From positions 1 to 64,000 of the forward strand of contig NZ_AUAN01000004.1 in assembly GCF_000428745.1 (NCBI RefSeq): a stretch of DNA of 64,000 nucleotides, in the 5' to 3' direction. Below, piece after piece: positions 51,772-54,546 of the stretch. The position numbers were made by a program, and so were the translations under genes. Each line of letters opens with the position of its first letter. Position 1 is the first letter of the stretch. The notes under the pieces were generated by a model, which was given only the letters and a program-made list of their open reading frames with translations, ran no database searches and was not told the origin of the DNA. Source of the stretch: Veillonella magna DSM 19857 (lineage in GTDB: Bacteria; Bacillota; Negativicutes; Veillonellales; Veillonellaceae).

Positions 51772-52713
51772 CTAACGCGGTGTTACTACTTGTTGATCGA
51801 AAACCTGCTGCACGGCAGTAAATCCTATCGGCTCCGGTGCTACCAAATACAGACAAAGCACAGCAAGCACAGCCAACGCAATGGCTATATACGAGAAGGA
51901 ACCACCACGACTGAATTCATACACACCAAAAAAACGAATTCCTATAGCCGAACCAATAGCCGCAATAAGAGACGGCATAGAAAACTCATTGTACATAGCA
52001 AAGTACAGCATCATACCGGCAAAAGCTCCCATGGCCATGACAATGGATAGCACGCCATCAAAGCCGGTAGAAAAACTACGACGCAGTCCTTTATTATACG
52101 ACGATGCTTCGATACCAACGAAGCCAAGCACAAAAGCTAAGGCCGTCCAAATAGTCCCCCAAGAACCGCGAAAAGCATCACGATGTTTACCAGCATACCA
52201 AGCAAATGCGGTAACCGCTAAGATAGCTACACCTACAACAATGAAGAAGTACGGTGCCGGAATAAAGGGGAACAACAATACCCCGGCTATACATGCCACC
52301 ATCGCCGCCAAGCTATAATACACGACACTAGCCACTGTCGGACGCTGTTCCACCGGAATCCGACAATATAAAGCCGCAGCCAATTCCAGAATAAAACAGA
52401 AAATAAAAATTCCTACGCCTACATAAGGTAATACTAATCCAATCACCAATGATAAGATGACCGGTATAATCAATCGCCATCCCGGGAAGAACACCAAGTC
52501 CTTAGCACTCATGCGCACATCTTGCGTTTCTACAGTAAAGTTATTGTATAATACAAACGTAAGCATAAATGCTATCGTTTCTGCCGGTGTTGCGCCCATA
52601 TATAAAATAGTCGGCACCAACAGCATAGAAATAGCCACACCGGTGAATCGCGAAATAACGGCGCTCATAAACCCGGCCCCTAAAAAGGGTAACAACACTG
52701 TAATATATTCCAT
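51772..52713 (-). CDS. TauE/SafE-type membrane exporter
   Basis: A 313-residue membrane protein with eight or nine hydrophobic segments: ITVLLPFLGAGFMSAVISRF at the N-terminus, a large centre, and a repeat of the half-domain (FDGVLSIVMAMGAFAGMMLY). The layout fits the sulfite exporter TauE/SafE (DUF81) family, but the typical short motifs are weak, so I would not name the substrate. The ATG follows AAGAGGAG. It lies downstream of the five-HTH gene on the same strand and is ended by its own terminator. Confidence 0.72.
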   Translation of the reverse strand: MEYITVLLPFLGAGFMSAVISRFTGVAISMLLVPTILYMGATPAETIAFMLTFVLYNNFTVETQDVRMSAKDLVFFPGWRLIIPVILSLVIGLVLPYVGVGIFIFCFILELAAALYCRIPVEQRPTVASVVYYSLAAMVACIAGVLLFPFIPAPYFFIVVGVAILAVTAFAWYAGKHRDAFRGSWGTIWTALAFVLGFVGIEASSYNKGLRRSFSTGFDGVLSIVMAMGAFAGMMLYFAMYNEFSMPSLIAAIGSAIGIRFFGVYEFSRGGSFSYIAIALAVLAVLCLYLVAPEPIGFTAVQQVFDQQVVTPR

Positions 52714-52794: not shown

Positions 52795-53610
52795 TTATAT
52801 GGATTTTGCCTTCTTCCGACCTCGATATAATCCTCGTCTCTCCAGGCGACAACGCACTGCTGTGTGCGAACATCCCTGATCTTTGGCGATAGCACTGACG
52901 CTGATTCCTTTAGCATACAATTCGCAAATTCGCACCTCATCCAACTGACGGCGATGCCCGCGCAGTGAAACTCCCGCATCACGTAAGCGCGATGCAATCG
53001 TACCTGATCGTACATGATATAAATTAGCCAGTCTTTCCGTCGACATATGAGCTACTGTATACAGATACACCAACTCGTCTTCGGAAATATTTTTGTACCT
53101 ACAGCTATGGCGAATCGTAATCTGGGCATGATGCAACACCTTCAATACATACCATCGTGATATCTTGAGATTTTTAGCAATTGCCGTAGCACTCGTGCCT
53201 GCCTGATAGCTCTTGATAATTTCTGCCGTCGGCAGACATGGCCGTGAAGCTCTCTTTCGACCGTCATTTTTATTAGCCGTAGCTTTGTTGGACTCCTTCA
53301 AACAATAATGTTCATGAAGGCGCTGACCAATTGTCGTATGTGAGCATTGATAAATAGTAGCGATTTCCTGCATACTTTTACCCTTCACCTCATATAGATA
53401 GACAATCTCATCGGTGGGAAGTGATTTTTTAATCCCGCGTACCGGAATACAATATTCGTGTAACCTCCGAACAACCGTATTTTGACTGCATTGCAGCTTT
53501 TCTGCCACTGCCCACGTTGTCATCTGCTTCTCCACATACAATGTCCATAACAAGCTTCGCGGAATAGTAATGCGTCGCTCTTCACTTATCTCTACTGTCT
53601 GTTGCTTCAT
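52795..53610 (-). CDS. Protein made of five tandem helix-turn-helix units
   Basis: A 271-residue very basic protein built from five related units of about 40 residues, at roughly 15-58, 64-104, 127-167, 176-217 and 223-263. Each reads LYxxxxS-x-IA-x-xxxCS-xx-TIxxRL followed by a G or P turn, the pattern of a small HTH like that of resolvases. Clear examples: SMQEIATIYQCSHTTIGQRL, STERLANLYHVRSGTIASRL, SVSAIAKDQGCSHTAVRCRL. No ligand or catalytic domain is seen. I do not recognise the family. Most likely a DNA-binding protein contacting several adjacent sites; nucleoid or regulatory roles are both possible. Upstream of the exporter gene by 81 bp. Confidence 0.8.
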   Translation of the reverse strand: MKQQTVEISEERRITIPRSLLWTLYVEKQMTTWAVAEKLQCSQNTVVRRLHEYCIPVRGIKKSLPTDEIVYLYEVKGKSMQEIATIYQCSHTTIGQRLHEHYCLKESNKATANKNDGRKRASRPCLPTAEIIKSYQAGTSATAIAKNLKISRWYVLKVLHHAQITIRHSCRYKNISEDELVYLYTVAHMSTERLANLYHVRSGTIASRLRDAGVSLRGHRRQLDEVRICELYAKGISVSAIAKDQGCSHTAVRCRLERRGLYRGRKKAKSI

Positions 53611-53919
53611 GCCATACCGCTTCCTTTCCGCCCTTTATTATAGTCACTAATATTACCTGTCTTCAAATAGGAATTTGACAATGGTGGTGTTGTTGTGCAT
53701 TGCAATATGATATACTATACAGACAGAGTAAAATTCGTTACAGTTGTTGTAGCACTACAAATTATCAACTCACATAGCGTTACGCATATACTGTTTATGC
53801 CGGTCTGTTGTTGACTTTTACTCCGCGTTACTTTTTATCTTCTTTAACTTTATACTATTTGCTTTATAGCATTATCTTATAGTTTTAATATTGCAGATAC
53901 TATCCCAAGGGAGATGACT
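53611..53919. promoter_or_regulatory. Divergent region between the five-HTH gene and the site-2 protease gene
   Basis: About 300 bp with no gene. On the plus strand an extended -10, TGATATACT (TATACT 53711-53716), is visible; TTGACA (53675-53680) lies too far upstream to be its -35. The remainder is AT-rich with no repeat that I can define. Confidence 0.3.
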
Positions 53920-54546
53920 ATGTTTAACTTTGATATAATCACCATGGCCGCTACATTACCGGCCATTATTATCTCTATGGCTGTTCACGAATATGCTCAT
54001 GCGCAAGTAGCCGACTGGCTCGGTGACGACACGCCTCGTCGCACGGGGCGTTTGACGTTAAATCCTTTTTCCCATATCGATATTGTAGGCATGATTATGC
54101 TCTTTCTTGTTCAATTCGGATGGGCTAAACCAGTTATGGTAAACCCTGCCAATTTCAAAGATAAAAAAACCGATGATATGTTGGTATCTATTGCGGGGCC
54201 ACTGGCAAATTTAATCGTTGCCTTCATTGCCTTAGCAGTACTGACAGTTATGCGCACACATCACATTGCTATATCCGACGGCTTATATCGCGTGCTTCTA
54301 TACACGATCATTTTAAATATTAACTTTGCTATTTTTAATTTATTGCCCATTCCCCCATTGGATGGTTCACGCCTTCTCATGCCCTTGATGAGTCCGGCAT
54401 GGCAAATGCGCTTTTTACAATGGGAACGTTTTAGTTTCCTTATCTTAATTATCTTTGCCTATTCTCCGCTGCTGGGTCACGTACTTATTCCATTACAACA
54501 CTCGATTCTAACGTTGTTTACATTCTTGCTATCACCACTAACCTAA
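53920..54546 (+). CDS. Site-2 protease family (M50) membrane metalloprotease
   Basis: A 208-residue membrane protein with the zinc site HEYAH in AVHEYAHAQVADWLGDDTP (residues about 22-40), the family block RRTGRLTLNPFSHIDIVG, VNPANFKDKKTDDMLVSIAG and the second active-site motif LLPIPPLDGSRLL with the catalytic Asp. It is the short, PDZ-less group of S2P, whose substrates are mostly unknown. The ATG at 53920 follows AAGGGAG; the ATG at 53914 overlaps the site. Confidence 0.93.
   Translation: MFNFDIITMAATLPAIIISMAVHEYAHAQVADWLGDDTPRRTGRLTLNPFSHIDIVGMIMLFLVQFGWAKPVMVNPANFKDKKTDDMLVSIAGPLANLIVAFIALAVLTVMRTHHIAISDGLYRVLLYTIILNINFAIFNLLPIPPLDGSRLLMPLMSPAWQMRFLQWERFSFLILIIFAYSPLLGHVLIPLQHSILTLFTFLLSPLT

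Follow-up and report, generated by a model that had tools for sequence, protein, structure and literature searches.

ComK, TfoX/Sxy, ComX/SigX, and ComR are known master regulators of natural competence. The role proposed here for HTH5, a chain of five helix-turn-helix (HTH) units encoded in the window (the whole 64,000-nucleotide stretch of Veillonella magna DSM 19857 DNA that was analyzed), is similar to theirs, with one box common to the promoters of comEA, the pilus genes, and dprA and with autoregulation. None of these regulator families is among the best 25 Pfam or the best 25 NCBIfam matches of HTH5. Veillonella parvula can be manipulated genetically by natural transformation (Knapp et al. 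2017, PMC5397411); the available passages of that paper on the gspE locus name no regulator, and no regulator of Veillonella competence was found in the accessible parts of the open-licence full-text literature. With a candidate regulator whose target is a defined element of ~50 bp, competence control in Negativicutes would become directly testable, and HTH5 could serve as a model for the reading of long repeated DNA by HTH units in a chain.

Cbp1, the CRISPR DNA repeat-binding protein of Sulfolobales (NF040595; 2lvs), is, like HTH5, a chain of HTH units. The available part of one report suggests that its three units line up, one after another, on a single repeat (PMC10883916). The best PDB match of the HTH5 family profile was 2lvs (E = 8.6e-6). 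NF040595 matched three stretches of HTH5 with 43.3 bits, below its cut-off of 140; Foldseek comparison of HTH5 with 2lvs was not significant (rank 12, E = 0.3), and Foldseek of the HTH5 model against the PDB gave no match at E ≤ 0.001. Whereas Cbp1 is archaeal, has three units, and binds CRISPR repeats, the HTH5 family has four to six units and candidate sites at competence promoters. HTH5 also resembles the region 4-type HTH of sigma-70 factors (TIGR02937), which matches four stretches and passes its cut-off over the whole protein (47.9 versus 42.9). The best stretch, however, covers only profile positions 124 to 156 of 165, and HTH5 has five region 4-like units in a row. No sigma-70 region 2 was seen among the best 25 of 42 Pfam matches, where the sigma-type models were of region 4 only, apart from a weak ECF match at residues 69 to 99. 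Phage antitermination Q-like and HNH endonuclease HTH modules (PHROG 79 and 8446) are among the best PHROG matches of HTH5, but no nuclease or other domain was found in HTH5 among the best 25 of 42 Pfam matches, and its gene is chromosomal and conserved in all 28 genomes of the family.

The HTH5 gene and its units lie in the window as follows.
52795..53610, minus strand: HTH5 gene (penta-HTH protein), 271 aa, ATG-to-stop ORF, stop codon within the coordinates
53455..53559, minus strand: HTH unit 1 (aa 18 to 52), three helices in the AlphaFold2 model plus unit HMM links
53311..53415, minus strand: HTH unit 2 (aa 66 to 100), AlphaFold2 model plus unit HMM links
53128..53229, minus strand: HTH unit 3 (aa 128 to 161), behind a low-confidence linker, AlphaFold2 model plus unit HMM links
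52978..53082, minus strand: HTH unit 4 (aa 177 to 211), AlphaFold2 model plus unit HMM links
52837..52938, minus strand: HTH unit 5 (aa 225 to 258), AlphaFold2 model plus unit HMM links

Five related HTH units and no other domain had been read from the sequence in the original prediction, and Pfam, structure prediction, and single-unit comparison all bore this out. Pfam returned 42 families at E ≤ 10, and nearly all of the best 25 were of HTH type, headed by the resolvase HTH family HTH_7 (E = 2e-16, three stretches); HTH_23 matched four stretches (E = 9.8e-15). Among these best 25 of 42, the matches not named HTH (TnsD, UPF0175, and DUF6115) were weak and under their cut-offs and no ligand domain appeared; together with the AlphaFold2 model, they gave no recognizable domain other than HTH. 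The model, computed from 23 orthologues, contained exactly 15 helices, all inside HTH units, which form five tri-helical units (mean pLDDT 82, pTM 0.31). The individual units are well defined, while their arrangement relative to each other is not, and residues 108 to 124 form a low-confidence linker. HMMs of single units picked up other units at E ≤ 0.01, a level that 0 of 3,000 shuffled sequences reached for each HMM; units 3 and 4 are the sole pair without a direct link in either direction. By these comparisons, the five units are homologous to one another. The number of units among orthologues, counted by eye, is four in MAG G014, five in most, and six in G020 and in a second genus (g3).

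HTH5 promoters in relatives of the window's genome share a DNA element with competence promoters. In six species examined from the genus-level group of the window's genome (group g1, species G001 to G006; the window's genome itself is G000), a GGTRTG unit occurs two or three times in the HTH5 upstream region, at a spacing of 20 bp in G001, G002, and G006 and of 33 to 39 bp in G003 to G005. The distance from the last unit to TATAAT is exactly 29 bp in all six promoters. The same spacing to TATAA is seen at topB of G005; at topB of G006 it depends on admitting a looser unit (GGGTGAGTC). A 17-bp pattern written from the g1 HTH5 promoters alone led to the comEA-ampS intergenic region, which is flanked, by Pfam, by Peptidase_M29 and by HHH_3 plus SLBB (ComEA); a gene at this locus has a weak match to DUF4131 (ComEC N terminus; 19.4 bits, under the cut-off).

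A looser pattern was written after comEA had been found, with its degeneracy taken from HTH5 variants. At one mismatch or fewer, it had 34 matches in the six g1 genomes, compared with 7 for the reversed-pattern control; 18 were intergenic and 16 were in ORFs. Half of the intergenic matches (9 of 18) are HTH5 promoters, in six genomes. Another five are in comEA-ampS (one each in G003, G004, and G005 and two in G006, where one would be coding if the ampS ORF were read from further upstream), and the rest are at prfC/topB (two; G005 and G006) and at a DpnII operon (two; G003 and G005). The gene beside topB, to which Pfam gives GTP_EFTU, is presumably prfC. G002 is the fifth genome with the unit at comEA-ampS, where it differs from the 17-bp pattern by two mismatches. 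The unit was thus found upstream of comEA in five of six g1 species, of topB (Topoisom_bac and Toprim by Pfam) in two, of the DpnII operon in two, and of gspE (T2SSE by Pfam) in one.

The 17-bp pattern, allowed three mismatches or fewer, matched G002 at 49 places, 43 in ORFs and 6 outside genes; the latter are at HTH5 (two), comEA (one), and gspE (one) and upstream of a HAD-like gene (two). A match counted as in-ORF if it fell in an ORF of 80 aa or longer (60 aa or longer in one round); G002:C5:247704 was placed there from its sequence identity to a G001 coding match. Two of 19 further G001 sites lie outside ORFs, neither at a known competence gene nor at HTH5. The pattern exceeds its reversed control in G001 to G006 (38 to 65 versus 13 to 25 matches), an excess not used as evidence because so many of the G002 matches are in ORFs. 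An 18-bp matrix built from 14 HTH5-promoter sites scored 15 to 23 in the comEA region of five of the six g1 species and 7.8 in G001, with a background maximum of 12.5 in 128,544 positions. No site was found at comM in g1, and the secretin operons of g1 and g3 follow galE so closely that in most cases a site would not fit.

In G005 and G003 (L318 and L321), the HTH5-type site lies ~100 bp upstream of a D12 methylase/DpnII restriction operon. Restriction is tied to competence in pneumococcus, and a site of this type would tie the two together here in a like manner.

The comEA and gspE promoters share a longer element, with 40 of 53 bases identical in G002 and 18 of 21 in G001, both ungapped. When 400 kb of G001 was scored with a 50-bp matrix from five comEA promoters, the best match was the gspE promoter (39.9 bits; next, -1.8). 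In the G001/G002/G006 lineage, the comEA and gspE elements carry TCAYAC and GTRTGA half-sites, which are inverted copies of each other, at offsets 1, 12, 20, and 31, and some elements do not have all four within one mismatch. A model of the first 38 bp, trained on comEA (G001, G002, and G006) and gspE (G001 and G002), scored 33.4, 19.1, and 33.4 bits out of lineage at the HTH5 promoters of G003, G004, and G005 and 14.2 and 31.4 at topB; the best score in the rest of 400 kb was 10.1. Against this background, the HTH5 promoters of G001, G002, and G006 scored -1.4, 10.3, and 4.3, and 50-bp models were negative there. The held-out 50-bp model was likewise negative for G004. Other matches of the 50-, 38-, and 31-bp models included no further clear target in the G001 stretches, and promoter scans, which are weak, detected no standard promoter at comM or comEA. 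A gspE-type locus was targeted as a competence locus in V. parvula (Knapp et al. 2017, PMC5397411). The first gene of that locus, as given in the available part of the paper, is resembled by gspE, and by gene content the gspE locus resembles the published one and may be its equivalent. At the gspE locus of G021, pilin-type genes come after those of two traffic ATPases.

In g3, the element common to HTH5 and competence promoters is weaker. Two TCCTACCAGT-like copies lie 19 bp apart in the HTH5 promoters of five of six genomes. Within the comM locus, the g3 HTH5 matrix had its best match at the yraN-comM promoter in four of six genomes, its second best there in G009, and none in G010; the scores in five genomes (9.3 to 13.2) are not above the best background of 13.4 (49,863 bases). 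The g3 HTH5 and yraN-comM-dprA promoters have CTCCTAMCAGTGWG in common. This pattern, written with the comM sequence already known, had 17 genome-wide matches at one mismatch or fewer: 5 at HTH5, 5 at comM, and 7 in ORFs (three of these placed by coordinates, one of them in a 62-aa ORF). The HTH5-comM local match beat 40 of 40 shuffles in all six g3 genomes, and in G011 and G013 that best match is the -10 region and not the repeat. With the same HTH5 matrix, g3 comEA was weak. The order yraN-comM-dprA was read in G018 by Pfam (UPF0102, Mg_chelatase, and DNA_processg_A); yraN-comM was observed in g3, where dprA presumably follows.

HTH5 upstream regions were compared with those of comEA or comM by shuffling in 23 of 28 genomes (40 shuffles each). 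For comEA, the number of shuffles reaching the observed match was 0 in G003, G004, and G005, 1 in G002, 10 in G006, 31 in G001, 2 to 21 in g3, and 0 to 19 in seven genomes of the V. parvula group (g4); it was 36 in G000, 17 in G007, 37 in G014, and 31 in G020. For comM, it was 0 in six of six g3 and seven of seven g4 genomes (a dispersed palindrome in g4), 1 to 40 in g1 (the 1, in G002, being a match without the repeat), 25 in G000, 11 in G014, and 1 in G020 (G007 was left out).

On balance, we lean toward HTH5 being a sequence-specific transcription regulator of natural competence that reads a 40- to 50-bp repeated operator. Its tandem HTH units would read repeated units of about two helical turns each. 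In g1, the operator would comprise TCAYAC and GTRTGA half-sites in alternating orientation, 8 to 11 bp apart and not all present in every element; such spacing along 40 to 50 bp would be compatible with binding by linked HTH units, in the manner proposed for Cbp1. The predicted operator lies in one genus at the promoters of comEA-comEC, the type IV pilus-like competence locus (gspE), and topB, in another at the yraN-comM-dprA promoter, and at the HTH5 gene itself, which would result in autoregulation. HTH5 would itself bind the element and may activate its target promoters, as suggested by the fixed position of the operator just upstream of -35 in HTH5 promoters. By orthology with these relatives, the same function is predicted for the window protein and its species. 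Indirect support for the original prediction of a protein that reads a long, repetitive DNA site comes from tandem units 19 to 20 bp apart (33 to 39 bp in three species) in the HTH5 promoters of two genus-level clades and from related ~40- to 50-bp elements at competence operons; the promoter of the window's own HTH5 gene lacks the element.

More tentatively, HTH5 might act as a DNA ruler, with its four to six HTH units lying along one face of the 40- to 50-bp operator, at roughly one per turn of the helix, and switching on competence family-wide. The programme would include the DNA uptake pilus, ComEA/ComEC, DprA, TopB, and, in some species, the DpnII system. Protein and operator would change together between genera, and HTH5 would represent a new type of master regulator.

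The sharing of promoter elements is symmetric as to which protein binds, and the inverted TCAYAC and GTRTGA copies make the half-sites partly palindromic, as would be expected of sites for a conventional dimeric regulator. HTH5 could accordingly be a member of the competence regulon and not its reader: another, dimeric regulator would bind the units at HTH5, comEA, gspE, and topB, and HTH5 would act otherwise in competent cells. We consider this alternative unlikely but worth weighing. It requires a second, unknown regulator, while the simplest reader of a repeated site is a five-HTH protein whose own promoter carries one, and both the form of the motif and the sequence of HTH5 differ between g1 and g3.

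HTH5 as a competence regulator must also be weighed against a local role, for which the neighboring genes are relevant.
51772..52713, minus strand: TauE-like permease gene (Pfam TauE, E = 0.019, under the cut-off), co-directional neighbor
53914..54546, plus strand: M50 site-2 protease gene (Pfam), divergent neighbor of HTH5

The TauE-like permease gene is located downstream of HTH5 and co-directional with it in 28 of 28 loci from four genus-level groups, as would fit a local regulator of the permease that responds to its substrate, with coincidental links to competence. This reading is improbable. No ligand domain of HTH5 appears among its best 25 of 42 Pfam matches, and the permease occurs without HTH5: of the 380 class genomes, 60 carry it, including 32 outside the family, all in the same order. 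No HTH5-type operator unit was seen by eye (unscored) in the HTH5-permease gap, which has promoter-like sequence of its own. Of the suggested regulation of the adjacent exporter, the conserved adjacency and direction stand, but no site was seen before the permease.

Regulation of the divergent site-2 protease, also suggested originally, is unlikely. M50 is divergent from HTH5 in six of six listed g1 to g3 loci and in zero of four listed g4 loci; because it is absent from the latter, a dedicated link is not expected, and the protease is probably not functionally tied to HTH5. At three g3 loci (L012, L013, and L016), the M50 homologue reads FNYAQ where the window protease has HEYAH and is probably catalytically dead, since the zinc-binding HExxH motif is lost.

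The tandem HTH architecture and the dispersed palindromes of the V. parvula group could also suit an architectural, chromatin-like protein that coats dispersed repeats in the manner of Cbp1 at CRISPR arrays. This is very improbable given that the intergenic sites found in g1 and g3 are few and mostly near promoters. Coating of DNA, the alternative offered in the original prediction, thus far finds no support. The g4 comEA promoter has a conserved palindromic element. The palindrome ahead of HTH5 and comM in g4 is part of a terminator-like element that is dispersed and also occurs at unrelated genes, and the g4 palindromes were set aside as HTH5 sites for this reason. A gspE promoter element was looked for in a single g4 genome, G021, where the g4 comEA matrix found none in 140 kb; g4 was not counted as support. 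A secretin operon site was seen only in g4.

Several g4 intergenic places (L175, L187, L188, and L189) contain a REP-like or terminator-like palindrome of ~40 bp (GAGGTTCCTATTGGTCACC..GGTGACTATTAGGAACCTC), often as neighboring copies around one gene, which we take to be MFS-like. Related palindromes in G018 and G021 lie upstream of two kinds of gene pair (L179 and L185; L180 and L186), presumably HicA-like/HicB-like and HigB/HigA-like.

In the window's own genome, the region upstream of HTH5 differs from that of several relatives.
53611..53913, no strand: divergent HTH5/M50 intergenic region, without periodic repeat and without match to the relatives' operator models
53666-53637, minus strand: promoter-like site for the HTH5 gene (promoter scan: 2 found, 1.6 expected by chance)

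Periodic target sites had been suggested for 53611-53919, and a search of this interval yielded just two-copy, chance-like repeats without periodicity. Operator models built from relatives found no operator upstream of the window's HTH5 gene; none was found upstream of HTH5 in G007 either. The 17-bp pattern is barely enriched in G000 (32 matches versus 22 in the reversed control). The comEA element of the window's genome scored 10.5 bits with the 50-bp model of five comEA promoters (best elsewhere, 3.0 in 387 kb plus the window) and, with held-out models, 2.9 (50 bp; background, 1.6) and -0.1 (38 bp). A weak match just ahead of the gspE ORF (-0.0) was second best in 260 kb. Upstream of gspE there is also an 18-bp periodic stretch (L408:16213-16313), which may represent either a coding repeat or an array with a regulatory role ahead of the competence pilus operon; it was left out of the evidence because its six-codon period would fit a coding repeat. 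Near G000:C1 329627 and 201075 (L410 and L404), repeats of ~20 bp (TTAACACYGRGAGCAT) resemble the genome's own comEA and gspE upstream sequence; the genes nearby are presumably Rpn-like.

An HTH5 orthologue with a continuous ORF was present in 28 of 28 genomes of the family (Veillonellaceae). Of 380 genomes searched across the class, 31 matched HTH5 at E ≤ 1e-10, comprising the 28 and three partial matches in one genus of another family; no full-length match was found in the other 352. On this survey, HTH5 is so far known only from Veillonella and its closest relatives. Each genome has one clear copy, with an additional partial match in G008 (E = 2.2e-15), and the 22 other orthologues aligned are 32 to 45% identical to the window protein. 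In five orthologues whose search rows reported internal stops, the ORF is continuous and the stop is the ORF end. The dN/dS ratio is 0.04 to 0.17 in ten pairs, in six of which dS is above 1. By these measures, HTH5 is not a relic and is strongly constrained across the family. That it is a degraded transposase (raised at the outset), resolvase, or phage protein, an alternative suggested by its top family (resolvase HTH_7) and by its phage HNH and antitermination Q matches, can be excluded for practical purposes, because the ORF is continuous, syntenic in 28 of 28 genomes, and under purifying selection family-wide, and no catalytic family was above cut-off among the best 25 of 42 Pfam matches. 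In another family of the class, open frames of 330 to 358 aa at two loci (L062 and L063, in G232 and G196) match weakly as tandem HTHs (E ~1e-11) and possibly encode independent tandem-HTH proteins.
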